From NCBI GenBank assembly GCA_003597945.1, contig QZJS01000057.1:1-45952 (forward strand): 45,952 nt of DNA. Reading direction: 5' to 3'. A program made the translations under genes and the position numbers. Positions 26,152-32,026 of this stretch are shown here, in pieces (position 1 is the stretch's first letter; each line of letters starts with the position of its first letter). The notes beneath the pieces are model-generated. The model did no database searches, was not told where the DNA came from, and saw nothing but the letters and a program-made list of their open reading frames with translations. This stretch comes from Desulfobacteraceae bacterium (lineage in GTDB: Bacteria > Desulfobacterota > Desulfobacteria > Desulfobacterales > Desulfosalsimonadaceae).

Positions 26152-28239
26152 TTATGAGCCGGTTTTGGCTTTTTTCTCTTCTTTTTCTCGAAGTTTGTCC
26201 AGCACGGATTTCGGGACCTGCTTGTACGCGTCGAATTCCATGGTGAACTGCGCCTTGCCCTGGGTTAAAGATCTCAGGACGGTGGCATATCCGAACATTT
26301 CCGCCAGTGGGACCCGTGCTTCAATAACGGTCGTATACCCCACATCATGGGCACCGATGATGATGCCGCGGCGCTGATTCATGGATCCCATTACATTGCC
26401 CTGGAATTCGCCGGGTGTTTCCACGACCACCTTCATGATCGGCTCCAGCAGAATAGGGGAGGCTTTGACGTAACCCTGTTGAAAAGATCCGCGGGCCGCC
26501 GCCTGGAAAGCGATATCCGAGGAATCAACGGTATGGGAAGCCCCGTCATTGATGACGACCTTTATCCCCGTGACGGGATATTTCATGTAGGGGCCTTTTT
26601 CAAGGCATGCCTTGAATCCTTTTTCACATGCAGGGATGAACTGGGTCGGGATCGATCCGCCGGTGACCTTGTTTTCGAAAATAAAATCCTGATCCGGCGC
26701 CGGTTCCAGATAACCGCTGATCCGGCCATACTGACCGGAGCCGCCGGTCTGTTTTTTATGGGTATAATCAAATTCGCTTCTGGCGGATATGGTTTCCCGG
26801 TAAGCCACGCGGGGTTCGCCGGAAATAATGTCGGACTGGTATTCCCGCTTCATGCGTTCAAGGTAAATTTCAAGATGGAGCTCGCCCATTCCTGAAATAA
26901 TGGTCTCGTTGGTCTCCTCGTTGGTAAATGCCCGAAATGTTGGATCTTCCTTGGTAAACCTGCTCAGCGCCTTGGCCATGTTTTTTTCGGATTGCAGGTT
27001 GACGGGTTTGATGGCCAGGGAGATCACCGGTTCCGGAACAAACATCGATGTCATGGAAAGATTGAGTCCCGGTGCGGCAAAGGTGTCGCCGGACGAACAG
27101 TCGATCCCGAAAAAGGCGCCGATATAGCCCGCCGAGATGCGCTCCACGTCTTCCATCTGATCCGCGTGCATGCGGACAATCCGGCCAACCTTTATTTTTT
27201 GACGGTTGCGCATATTAACGGCGACATCACCTTTTTTCAACATGCCCTGGTACAGCCGGATATAGCTGAGCTGTCCGTAGTGCCCGTCTTCGAGTTTGAA
27301 TGCCAGTGCAACGAGGGGATCATCAGCTTTGCCGGACAGGATAATCTGTTTTTCGGGATCATCGATGTCCATGGCGATATTTGAAACGTCCATAGGAGAG
27401 GGCAGAAAGTGGGTGACGGCATCGAGCAGGGTCTGAATGCCTTTATTTTTATATGCGGAGCCCATCAGAACCGGCGTTATTTCCCGTTTCAGGGTGCCGG
27501 TGCGGACGGCCGACATGAGAAGGCGTTCGGTGATCTCCGTCTCTTCCAGCACGGCTTCGGTAAGTTCATCGGAAAACATGGTAGCGGCATCAATCAGGAT
27601 ATCACGCTTTTCACGGGCAAGATCCAGCAGATCGGCCGGGATGGCTTCTATCCTTACGGCATCGCCGTAATCACCGTCAAAATAGACGGCTTTCATTGAA
27701 ATTAAATCGATGACGCCTTCAAAACCGGCTTCCTGGCCGATGGGAATCTGGAGGGCAACGGCATTATGATGCAATTTTTCCCGGAGCTGGGTGATGACCC
27801 GGAAAGGGTCGGCCCCGCTTCTGTCGCATTTGTTCACAAAGGCGATACATGGCACGCGGTAACGCTTCATCTGCTGGTCCACGGTGATGGACTGGCTCTG
27901 AACACCGCCCACCGCGCACAAGACCAGAATGGCCCCATCGAGCACCCGCAATGCCCGCTCCACCTCGATGGTAAAGTCGACATGTCCGGGCGTGTCGATG
28001 ATATTGACCTCGTGATCCCCCCACTGGCAGTACGTGGCGGCGGATGCAATGGTAATACCCCTTTCTTTTTCCAGTTCCATGGAATCCATGGTGGCGCCGA
28101 CGCCGTCTTTTCCCCTGACCTCATGGATCCGATGGATGCGTCGGGTCATAAAGAGAATTCGTTCGGTCAATGTGGTTTTACCGGAATCGATATGCGCGCT
28201 GATACCAATGTTTCTTACTTTTTGAATATCCGTATTCAT
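26152..28239 (-). CDS. fusA: elongation factor G, spdEFG1/mitochondrial EFG1-like type
   Basis: This 695-residue translational GTPase covers all five EF-G domains. G1 is AHIDSGKT, G3 DTPGH, G4 NKCD. The switch segment [26 protein letters not shown], with its [12 protein letters not shown] wording, is typical of mitochondrial EFG1 and of the spirochaete/delta-proteobacterial spdEFG1 group, unlike standard bacterial EF-G (HRMGEVHDGAATMDWM). It would drive ribosomal translocation; in organisms with this pair, recycling is done by a second paralogue (spdEFG2) not in this window. It is not in an rpsL-rpsG-tuf setting. The ATG at 28239 is preferred to a GTG four codons earlier, though its ribosome site is weak. 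Confidence 0.92.
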
Positions 28240-28366
28240 TTTTTCCAACACATGTTTTGTTTATAATGTCAAAAGTAACTAATCAGAACCCGTGAAAAAT
28301 TTATAAATTTAACTGATTATTTTTTATAAGTCAATAAAAATTATTTTCAGAAGAGATCAATTACCT

Positions 28367-28966
28367 TCAGACCCCGTCGGGCAGAATCAGGCGGTCGATA
28401 ATCAACCCGAAAAAGGAATCATTATGATTACTCGAAAAGATCCAGCCGAGATGCGTTTGGCAAAAACGGCATTCGGTGATTTGCCAGCAATAACCCGGAA
28501 ACCAGCAAAACTCAATGGATGAAGGTCCGATGGGGTCGCATCCGTCCGCGGATTTAAAACAGCCGATTTCAAATACGATGCCATGGGGATTGGCAAATGT
28601 GTGCATGTGCTGCCCTTTGACCTCTATTTGCGCGGAGCAATGAGTAATTATCCGTCGGCATTGGCTGCACAGTATAAAACCGTTTTCATCAGATGATCGA
28701 TCCCTGAGGGTTTGCTTATCTTTTACAGGGGCGGATCCTGATCCTGATTTGTTTTCCGGTGAAATCCTGAATAACGGCAATTTGCTGGATAATGAAATCA
28801 TTTTGAAACAATTCATCCGCATGTTAAATAAAAGTATCTTATTATGTATCATCTGTTTTTTGGAAAAATTTGTCAATCCGGAAAGCCCGACATCCGGCAA
28901 AGGTTTCAGGCCATCAGCACAATTTTTGCAAGCAACCGTTGTTTTATTGAAAAGTTGTGTTCCCAT
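28367..28966 (-). CDS. stand-alone CULT (cereblon thalidomide-binding-type) domain protein
   Basis: This 199-residue frame has a CULT domain at about 97-199. The zinc ligands are CSQC (100, 103) and CRFC (166, 169). The aromatic cage is complete: Trp155 (CWFPG), Trp161 (GYCW), Trp175 (HLGW) and Phe177, matching Trp380, Trp386, Trp400 and Phe402 of human cereblon; NPHG (126-129) also matches the cereblon pocket loop. Bacterial single-domain CULT proteins are known, and they bind uracil- and thalidomide-like ligands in vitro, but their role is unknown. The N-terminal 96 residues are low in conservation and the true start is uncertain: later Met codons (for example at 28801) would give a shorter protein. 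It is divergent from asparagine synthetase. Confidence 0.8.
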   Translation of the reverse strand: MGTQLFNKTTVACKNCADGLKPLPDVGLSGLTNFSKKQMIHNKILLFNMRMNCFKMISLSSKLPLFRISPENKSGSGSAPVKDKQTLRDRSSDENGFILCSQCRRIITHCSAQIEVKGQHMHTFANPHGIVFEIGCFKSADGCDPIGPSSIEFCWFPGYCWQITECRFCQTHLGWIFSSNHNDSFFGLIIDRLILPDGV

Positions 28967-29111: not shown

Positions 29112-31001
29112 ATGTGCGGTATTTGCGGGATTGTCTCCTCCTTGCTGTCTGCAGACGATATTTGCCGTCGGCTTGACGCAATGAATGCTTTACAGGGGCA
29201 TCGGGGTCCGGATGACCGGCGCCAGGAAGTCTTTTCGATTTCAGGGTCAAAAGTTGGACTGGGGTTTGTCCGTCTGTCCATTTTAGATATAGAAACCGGA
29301 ATGCAGCCTTTAAAGTGCATGTCGGATCAGTCCGCCATTGTTTGCAATGGACAAATATATAATTACATCGAACTCCGCGATCAGGTTGTAAATGAGCCCT
29401 TTGTATCCAGAGGCGATATTGAAGTTGCCCTTCATTTGTACCGTATAAAAGGGATTGAATTTTTAAATGATTTAAACGGCATGTATGCGGGGGCCATTTA
29501 TGACCCCGCACACCGGAGGCTGCTGCTCTTCCGTGATCGTTTCGGTATCAAGCCTTTATATTACACATTTGCGCAAGGCGGCTTGGTTTTTTCATCCGAA
29601 ATAAAACCACTGCTGGCCGGCAGCGACATCAGAAAAGAATTAAACCTTGCCCGGCTGAGCACTTATTTTACCTACCGCTACGTACCCGGCGATGAAACGC
29701 TTTTCAAAGGGGTGTATAAATTGCCGCCGGGCAGTTACCTGATTTATGACATCGATACAGGTACTCACCGAATTAGTCGTTACTGGGAATACCGGCTGGA
29801 TAAGGTCGACAGCAGGATATCCATAGATGATGCGGCGGATGCGTTTGAGACGATCTTTTCGGATGCGGTTCGAATCCGCATGCGCTCTGATGTCGAAGTC
29901 GGGTGCCTGATCAGCGGCGGTATCGATTCGGCCGCCGTTTCCGCTTCGGTGGGCCGGATACAGCCGGATGTCCGTCTTTTTACCATCGGTTTTGAGGATA
30001 ATCGTTATAATGAAATTCCCGCCGTTGTTGATTTCACGAAAAGCATGACCGAAACCCTGGGGTCCGCCCGGCTTTTTTCCCGGACATGCCGGAAACAAAA
30101 TCTGGAGCAGCTTCCCGGGATTATTTATTCGCTGGAGGAACCGATTTCTCTTGGAACGGTAATTCCTACCGATATGGTCTGCGATATGGCGGCCCGGCAG
30201 TTGAAAGTCGTCCTCACGGGAGAGGGCGCGGATGAAATATTCGGCGGATACCGTAAATTCGTCATTGAAGCCGCCGTGTCCCGGTTTCCGGAGATGACCC
30301 GTCAGCACCAGGAAGCCTGCCTGAATTCGTATCCGGAGCTGAAACGGTTTTTATCCGACATACCAACAGATCCTGCACAGCGTTATATTCGGACCGAGGC
30401 ACTGTTCTCTTTGGATCAGATCCGGCGGCTGACCGGTTGCGCGATTATGGATGATCCCATGCCCGACGATGTTCGGCCCCTGTTAGCCGGCGTCGAAGAT
30501 CCGGTCAACCAGATGATCGCCTTTGAAGCCCGCATGCGTCTGCCGGAATACGTGGTGTTGCGGCTGGACCGATTGTCCATGCGCCATTCCCTTGAAGCCC
30601 GGACCCCGCTGCTGGATTTCCGCCTGGCGGAATTCGCGGCAACCCTGCCTGTTAATTTCAAAATTGATCTTATAAAACAGCAGGAAAAATTCATCTGCCG
30701 TTTTGCCTATTTAAAACACGGCATCATCGACCGCAAAACCGCGATGCGGGCCAAGCAGCCGTTTACCATTCCCTTAACGGCCTGGCTTCTGGAAAGACAA
30801 AACCTGCCCGATGTCTTTTGCGACATTCTTTACGGCAACATGATCGCCCGTCATGGCATATTAAATCCAAAGGTAGTTAAAACCCTTTTAAAACAGGCAA
30901 CGGCCAATGACGGGGGACCGGATACGCTGGTATCAGCGGCGGATCAATTGTTTTCCATTATTGTTTTTTCCCTTTGGTACCACGCGTTTTTCCTGGAATA
31001 A
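29112..31001 (+). CDS. asnB: asparagine synthase (glutamine-hydrolysing)
   Basis: A protein of 629 residues. Met-Cys-Gly-Ile gives the N-terminal nucleophile Cys2 of the class II glutaminase, with HRGPDD and FNGQIYNY-like (CNGQIYNY) motifs; DRFGIKPLYY ends that domain. The synthetase domain has the PP-loop LISGGIDSAAV near 265-275 and GEGADEIFGGY near 375. It converts aspartate to asparagine with glutamine and ATP; AsnB-like proteins also amidate other carboxylates in biosynthetic clusters. The 92-base gap to the GCS2-type ligase suggests, but does not prove, co-transcription. No strong ribosome site precedes the ATG. Confidence 0.9.
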   Translation: MCGICGIVSSLLSADDICRRLDAMNALQGHRGPDDRRQEVFSISGSKVGLGFVRLSILDIETGMQPLKCMSDQSAIVCNGQIYNYIELRDQVVNEPFVSRGDIEVALHLYRIKGIEFLNDLNGMYAGAIYDPAHRRLLLFRDRFGIKPLYYTFAQGGLVFSSEIKPLLAGSDIRKELNLARLSTYFTYRYVPGDETLFKGVYKLPPGSYLIYDIDTGTHRISRYWEYRLDKVDSRISIDDAADAFETIFSDAVRIRMRSDVEVGCLISGGIDSAAVSASVGRIQPDVRLFTIGFEDNRYNEIPAVVDFTKSMTETLGSARLFSRTCRKQNLEQLPGIIYSLEEPISLGTVIPTDMVCDMAARQLKVVLTGEGADEIFGGYRKFVIEAAVSRFPEMTRQHQEACLNSYPELKRFLSDIPTDPAQRYIRTEALFSLDQIRRLTGCAIMDDPMPDDVRPLLAGVEDPVNQMIAFEARMRLPEYVVLRLDRLSMRHSLEARTPLLDFRLAEFAATLPVNFKIDLIKQQEKFICRFAYLKHGIIDRKTAMRAKQPFTIPLTAWLLERQNLPDVFCDILYGNMIARHGILNPKVVKTLLKQATANDGGPDTLVSAADQLFSIIVFSLWYHAFFLE

Positions 31002-31093
31002 TTTTTTTCTCTATAAAACGCAGAAGATCCTTAACTCAGGTTTTTATTATCTGGTTTAGACGACTATAGCGCATTGGGATTGTAGAAATTTTT

Positions 31094-32026
31094 ATGATGA
31101 GTAAGCCCGATAGATACATCGTTGACGCTCTTGCGGCATCATTTACCCGTCAATATATTGATGTTTTGTTAAAAATTGACGGCACGGGACATCGTACCTA
31201 CGGGATCGAATATGAGTTTTTACCCCATCGTTTTATGACCCTTGATGACATGACCCGATTGTATCGATTTTTGGAAAACACAGGCATGCGCGCCGAGAGC
31301 TCTGAGTTTGTCTCGATTGATGGAATCCATGTTGCGTTTGAACCCGGCGGCCAGATCGAGTACAGCAGTCCGCCTCTAAAAGCATTTGATGCCCGTGGAT
31401 TAGACGATTTTCTTTCTTTTATCACACAAACCAATGCCCTGATCCGGGACCAACTGGATATTGTGTATGAAGCACGCGGTTTTGCGCCCGGCCGCGCGAA
31501 TGCTCCATTGTGCCTGACATCCCCAAGATACCGCCTGCTGCATGACCGGCTGGAGAAAACAGGCACGCGGGGCCTTGAAATGATGAAAGGCACCGCATCC
31601 ATCCACTTGCATGTCAGGATTGCCGGTATTACGGAACTGCTCCACCTTTTCCGGCGTTTGTGCGAAATGGCGACATCCGCTGATTTCAGGATGTCGCCCC
31701 AGCGTCGCGAAATCTGGGACAATACCGATGCCATGCGATGCGGATTACCGCCGTGCTGCAATGAACACCTGAATTCAGCCGAACAGTTGATCGAACGGCT
31801 GGTCCGTTTTGCTCTGGCAGCCGACGTGCTGGGTGAAAACCTTCCATTTTACCTCACGCGTGACCAGTCTTTTAAAGCTTTTTTGTATCATATGACGACG
31901 TTGTTTACGGATGTCCGCTTTAATCTGAAAGGTCCGACCCTGGAACTTCGAACATTAGATAGTATTCCGATCAATCGATTCAGAGAAAAATGGCAAATTT
32001 TTGTTTCCTCACTTGAAAACTTATGA
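31094..32026 (+). CDS. glutamate-cysteine ligase family protein (GCS2 type)
   Basis: A 310-residue protein with the GCS2 pattern: GIEYEFLPHRF near 38 (first metal-binding acids), AFEPGGQIEYSSPP near 86 and MMKGTASIHLHV near 165. Plant-type GshA and EgtA share this pattern and join glutamate to cysteine by a gamma-peptide bond. At 310 residues it is shorter than most (370-450), so another gamma-glutamyl or carboxylate-amine ligation is possible. Its stop overlaps the next ATG (ATGA), coupling it to glutaredoxin, which supports a glutathione-related role. No glutathione synthetase gene is in the window. Confidence 0.72.
   Translation: MMSKPDRYIVDALAASFTRQYIDVLLKIDGTGHRTYGIEYEFLPHRFMTLDDMTRLYRFLENTGMRAESSEFVSIDGIHVAFEPGGQIEYSSPPLKAFDARGLDDFLSFITQTNALIRDQLDIVYEARGFAPGRANAPLCLTSPRYRLLHDRLEKTGTRGLEMMKGTASIHLHVRIAGITELLHLFRRLCEMATSADFRMSPQRREIWDNTDAMRCGLPPCCNEHLNSAEQLIERLVRFALAADVLGENLPFYLTRDQSFKAFLYHMTTLFTDVRFNLKGPTLELRTLDSIPINRFREKWQIFVSSLENL

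Follow-up and report, generated by a model that had tools for sequence, protein, structure and literature searches.

What does a cereblon-type CULT protein do in a bacterium? Bacteria are not known to have cullin-ubiquitin machinery, and the native role of their CULT proteins has been a standing question ever since 2015, when the family was defined. The literature searched establishes no such role, as the first-pass annotation of the present locus had also stated. The nearest relative with a solved structure, cereblon isoform 4 of Magnetospirillum gryphiswaldense (MsCI4, MGR_0879), is a standard tool in cereblon drug design. The gene considered here lies in a 45,952-nucleotide stretch of DNA from a Desulfobacteraceae bacterium (contig QZJS01000057.1, assembly GCA_003597945.1), hereafter the window. 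Our preferred reading, to which we assign a rough probability of 40%, is that its product is a reader of cyclic imides of about 144 residues whose N-terminal tail recruits an effector, making it a two-part adaptor.

The identity of the domain is supported by sequence and by predicted fold. Residues 98–194 of the longest reading frame match MsCI4 (6r0q) with an E-value of 2.8e-21 in a phmmer search against the PDB, and also match human cereblon with E-values of about 1e-12 to 1e-15. An AlphaFold2 model built from an 85-sequence alignment has pLDDT values of 92–98 across the CULT domain, and Foldseek places MsCI4 structures at the top of its matches (E 1.3e-10, TM 0.86–0.92 by target length), among them the complexes with deoxyuridine (4v31) and valerolactam (5ohb), with human cereblon soon below. 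The predicted model thus has the beta-tent fold of MsCI4 and of the cereblon thalidomide-binding domain. Family databases are far less informative. Because Pfam returns a sub-threshold Yippee-Mis18 match alone (PF03226, E 0.021, 15.4 bits against a cut-off of 26.6, over 26 residues) and a search of NCBIfam gives no match, the gene would probably stay 'hypothetical' under family annotation. Neither a LON domain nor a PF04386 (SspB family) domain is matched in the protein by Pfam. The agreement of phmmer, Foldseek and the zinc, NPxG and cage residues bears out the bacterial cereblon-type CULT protein proposed in the first-pass annotation: the gene is real, intact and correctly identified, an ordinary member of the family described in 2015.

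The ligand pocket is retained in full. The three cage tryptophans (W155, W161 and W175), the phenylalanine that follows the third of them, the NPHG loop and the four zinc cysteines all lie where the first-pass annotation had placed them. By the residue correspondence between MsCI4 and human cereblon (PMC8900816, PMC4449219), the tryptophans of the window protein align with W79, W85 and W99 of MsCI4, and the loop is the NPxG motif of CULT described in PMC4449219. The three Trp, the four Cys and the N, P and G are identical in all 61 homologues from a plain protein search in which the motif was not used; they are likewise identical in 118 of 118 sequences of a larger set, an invariance that is partly selected, since some of that set came from a scan whose pattern includes two of the tryptophans. 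Within the same 118 homologues, F153 is kept in 116 and E152 in 104, and the position of F177 holds Phe in 99 and Tyr in 19. With all residues of the cage, the NPxG loop and the zinc motifs retained, the pocket is intact, as had been predicted. Elsewhere in the phylum, a remoter CULT-like protein (L180) keeps the cage tryptophans and is without the NPxG motif.

The start of the protein calls for correction. The window's list of open reading frames gives an intact frame of 199 codons (28367–28966, minus strand), which would add 96 residues ahead of the domain. Homologues start about 37–52 residues ahead of the first zinc cysteine, many of them exactly 44, and many begin with M-I in a register that matches MISxxxxxxxLFRVPPEK. 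M56 of the 199-codon frame, at ATG 28801, is an exact fit to the 44-residue register; M49 (28822) and M51 (28816) are also candidates, several tails of the same family being 49–50 residues long. Residues 1–48 yield only self-matches among the homologous loci of the fetched relatives. Since the homologues' tail register favours 28801 and residues 1–48 are without a homologue, comparison of sequences indicates that 28966 is almost certainly the wrong start and that 28801 (or 28816/28822) gives the protein, of about 144–151 residues. The extension noted in the first-pass annotation, which had asked for its start to be mapped, thereby divides in two: some 48–55 residues are probably not translated, and the last 44 or so are real and carry a conserved motif. 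No clear or strong ribosome-binding site precedes any candidate start, and promoter and terminator scans around the gene gave results near chance.

Table 1. Features of the CULT locus, in window coordinates
Feature	Position	Strand	Evidence or remark
CULT gene, most likely true extent	28367..28801	-	144 aa + stop; ATG 28801; alternatives 28816, 28822
In-frame upstream stretch, residues 1–48 of longest frame, probably untranslated	28823..28966	-	similar to no fetched homologous locus
N-terminal short linear motif LFRISPENK (family form [LF][LF]R-x-P-x-[ED]-[KR])	28748..28774	-	enriched versus shuffles; low pLDDT
CULT domain, C100 to C-terminus	28370..28669	-	phmmer MsCI4 E 2.8e-21; AlphaFold2 pLDDT 92–98; Foldseek MsCI4 E 1.3e-10
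First zinc motif CxxC (C100, C103)	28658..28669	-	118/118 homologues
NPHG loop N126-P127-H128-G129, CULT NPxG motif	28580..28591	-	N, P, G 118/118; H 73/118
Pocket segment E152-F153-C-W155-F-P-G-Y159-C-W161	28484..28513	-	human cereblon E377, H378, W380, Y384, W386
Second zinc motif CxxC (C166, C169)	28460..28471	-	118/118 homologues
Third cage Trp and following aromatic, W175-I-F177	28436..28444	-	human W400, F402; MsCI4 W99, Y101
Elongation factor G, same-strand downstream neighbour of CULT	26152..28251	-	TIGR00484 950 bits
AsnB-type amidotransferase/asparagine synthase, divergent neighbour	29112..31001	+	TIGR01536 383 bits, over cut-off
GCS2-like glutamate-cysteine ligase family protein, travels with asnB	31094..32026	+	PF04107 E 4.1e-8

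The short motif in the tail sits about 34 residues ahead of the first zinc cysteine, at a near-constant spacing. Its loose form occurs at that distance in 16 of 36 one-per-family sequences, where composition-preserving shuffles lead one to expect 0.65, and in 11 of 25 same-family sequences (0.74 expected); sequences from elsewhere in the phylum carry the motif in 4 of 14 cases, and the strict pattern is missing from more than half of CULT sequences. The linker that follows is net negative in 95 of 118 homologues, with a net charge of 0 in the window copy. In two AlphaFold2 runs, one of them led by a strong-motif sequence, the tail of about 44 residues is predicted to be disordered, with pLDDT of about 40–55; neither run predicts packing of the tail back on the CULT domain, an arrangement that we rejected. 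A likeness between the motif and the ClpX-binding peptide of SspB was also set aside, the resemblance being too weak to serve as evidence. Conserved short motifs within disordered tails are usually docking sites. The combination of motif and predicted disorder suggests that this one, too, is most likely a site at which a partner docks.

CULT is a common chromosomal gene in this lineage, and the window copy is one of hundreds among sulphate reducers and allied groups. The gene was found in 66 of the 98 close relatives, in 247 of 390 genomes sampled from the class (140 of the 201 better ones) and in only 29 of 297 drawn from the phylum as a whole, nearly always as a single chromosomal copy. Scanning the genomes of bacteria and archaea gave 349 relatives, and the best 80 of the 349 are overwhelmingly from Desulfobacterales and other Deltaproteobacteria, which agrees with the statement that the CULT proteins of bacteria come mainly from delta-proteobacteria (PMC4287342). 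Carriage on mobile elements was considered and rejected, the phage, plasmid and viral-contig collections giving no CULT match at the sensitivities used. As about 30% of high-quality genomes in the class are without the gene, CULT is not essential. In a poorly resolved tree of 101 columns, the window copy (28370–28669) falls outside its own family despite the same syntenic place and pairs with a long-branch sequence, a grouping that may be an artefact.

The genes that lie beside CULT differ across lineages, so that its surroundings at present offer no hint of function. Downstream neighbours vary with lineage and include a family of about 307 residues without a Pfam match, a 180-residue family without a significant one, an ADP-ribosylglycohydrolase-like protein, a 148-residue family and a metallo-beta-lactamase fold protein; a conserved operon partner was rejected on this ground. 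Two of these families deserve separate mention. The protein of about 180 residues, which begins MGEIKSTLDLVMEKTK, is encoded on the CULT strand, downstream of that gene, in four or more taxonomic families (L107:10502-11041, and L093, L098, L099, L105, L109, L110, L121, L138, L142 and L162), at a distance that ranges from overlap to about 780 bp. The protein of about 307 residues has a signal-peptide-like start and lies between CULT and the gene for elongation factor G in about half of same-family loci (L139:10444-11355, L151, L071 and others); it is absent from the window. On the other side, the AsnB-type and GCS2/EgtA-like genes form a two-gene unit that is conserved across several families of the order (29112–32026 in the window, L174, L175, L176–L179) and that resembles an uncharacterised unit for the ligation of peptides or thiols; glutaredoxin and PilZ genes lie near it in the window's own family.

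How the conserved pocket and the conserved tail might work together is suggested by work on relatives. The ligands of MsCI4 that others have established are thalidomide, deoxyuridine and a cyclic-imide peptide. In the model that we propose, a probably cytosolic, single-domain CULT protein would bind cyclic imides in its aromatic cage, the likeliest natural ligands being the C-terminal aspartimides and glutarimides of damaged or processed proteins, while the disordered tail with its [LF][LF]RxPx[ED]K motif would dock onto a partner; the domain would read the imide and the tail would recruit the effector. The first half of this model is drawn from three reports. Cereblon recognises C-terminal aspartimide and glutarimide, which arise from cyclised Asn and Gln ends (PMC12117711), as the first-pass annotation had stated; the recognition extends to a bacterial CULT protein, MsCI4 having been crystallised with the QcQ degron peptide (PDB 8BC7; PMC10641816); and the protein-repair enzyme PIMT is reported to generate C-terminal aspartimides (PMC13001092). 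Co-occurrence of PIMT and CULT was rejected as support, since PIMT-family genes (PF01135) are matched in all 98 relatives and all 14 control genomes and discriminate nothing. Pocket residues as in cereblon and MsCI4, together with a predicted fold that matches MsCI4, argue for an imide reader, and the motif, far above shuffled expectation in a region predicted to be disordered, with an acidic linker behind it in most homologues, argues for an adaptor. Against the model stand the absence of a conserved CULT neighbour pointing to protein turnover or imides, the lack of the strict motif in over half of the sequences, the dispensability of the gene, and the binding of uracil-type ligands by the same cage in MsCI4 (PMC4287342). 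By analogy with the layout of SspB, the first partner to consider would be an AAA+ protease such as ClpXP or Lon, delivery to a protease being an extension of our own. That bacterial CULT proteins at large are ubiquitin-free degradation adaptors, predating or parallel to cereblon, which use cage and motif to deliver imide-ended proteins to such a protease, we consider distinctly unlikely on present grounds.

A different link to imides was raised by the first-pass annotation, in which CULT would sense Asn/Gln-derived imides in functional connection with the neighbouring asparagine synthetase, and in which conservation of the asnB neighbourhood was named as a check. Within the window's family the association looks strong, asnB lying near CULT in 20 of 24 loci and divergent and adjacent in nearly all of these, as it is in the window. 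Outside the family it vanishes: asnB is near CULT in 0 of 93 loci, 80 of which have at least 2.5 kb of sequence on that upstream side. Elongation factor G, on the opposite side, is near CULT in 20 same-family loci, equal to asnB, with two distant homologues only in the 93 other loci. The constant companion of asnB is instead the GCS2-like gene, which adjoins it wherever that gene was checked (G036, G069, G071, G084, G022 and G023), in four cases in genomes without CULT (G036, G071, G022, G023) and in two where megabases or contigs separate it from CULT (G084, G069). CULT and asnB also part company inside the family. One genome (G006) has the order tpiA-secG-CULT, with asnB and GCS2 missing in between; another (G022) reads tpiA-secG-PilZ-GCS2-asnB and then elongation factor G, has lost CULT, and no remnant of the gene was found. 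Given 0 of 93 outside the family and independent losses in G006 and G022, the adjacency is best read as a family-level synteny block that reflects shared ancestry of this piece of chromosome. This double dissociation, together with the outside-family loci, led us to reject a functional partnership; the idea fails the first-pass annotation's own check of a conserved neighbourhood, and a sensor tied to asparagine synthetase is highly improbable. The gap in G022 (L174:12600-14000) encodes a protein of about 454 residues that by eye resembles a transposase of the IS110 type and could plausibly have brought about the loss of CULT.

A sensor of uracil-type metabolites is a serious rival, if a rather unlikely one: the ligand of the cage would be uracil, uridine or some related lactam or pyrimidine, whose binding would switch one of the protein's interactions. 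In a screen, MsCI4 bound both uracil and uridine, and the authors took the very high conservation of the pocket between bacteria and animals as a sign of a widespread ligand (PMC4287342), and the deoxyuridine and valerolactam complexes among the Foldseek matches point the same way. The surroundings of the gene do not, as CULT has no conserved pyrimidine genes beside it, cytidylate-kinase-like genes occurring in one locus group only (14 of 118), and no regulatory RNA (Rfam element) was found near it. Rather doubtful, too, is a reading in which the cage binds a nitrogen heterocycle or a modified side chain in an unrelated task, for example as a chaperone or a zinc-dependent scaffold, with imide binding incidental. 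In other families, methylated side chains are what cage proteins read, and the beta-tent fold is common to yippee, MsrB and others. The study that defined the family left the physiological ligand as a question (PMC4287342), which is compatible with such a task, whereas the complete conservation of the glutarimide-binding tryptophans and of the backbone hydrogen-bond segment speaks against it.

A large and ordinary family of chromosomal CULT genes is now on hand in which the native role can be tested. The present analysis adds a corrected start, which is useful for cloning, the tail motif, the prevalence of the gene and the removal of a misleading asnB lead. The conserved motif is a new and concrete handle, as a binding partner is to be expected for it; were this a protease, imide-based protein quality control without ubiquitin would exist.

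The comparison with known systems places the window protein closest to MsCI4. Both are stand-alone bacterial CULT proteins, 36–41% identical over about 100 residues in structural alignments, and share the zinc motifs, the NPxG motif and the Trp cage. They differ at F177 and H128, which are Y101 and A52 in MsCI4 and correspond to human cereblon (F402 and H353) in the window, and in the motif-bearing tail of about 44 residues, the matches to MsCI4 starting at about residue 22 of its 124-residue construct. The thalidomide-binding domain of human cereblon is a homologous CULT domain; W380, W386, W400, F402, H353 and E377 are identical in the window protein, whereas H378 is Phe (F153). Human cereblon further has the LON domain and the DDB1-binding region, N-terminal LON and DDB1 binding being what marks a CRL4 receptor; in the window protein of about 144 residues no LON domain is found, no DDB1-binding region is expected and the tail is predicted to be disordered, so that it does not belong with the CRL4 receptors. 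Yippee/Mis18 proteins (PF03226) have the beta-tent superfamily in common with it, and the weak match cited above places it outside their family. The closest likeness in layout is to SspB, a globular degron reader with a docking motif on a flexible tail, to which the CULT protein is related only by analogy: there is no sequence relationship, and it is not a member of the SspB family. The XB peptide of SspB binds the zinc-binding domain of ClpX irrespective of its placement (PMC12373786). No SspB (PF04386) turned up in the 98 relatives searched, while the genome to which the window belongs encodes a ClpX complete with zinc-binding domain, a combination that is compatible with the idea of a protease adaptor but no proof of it.
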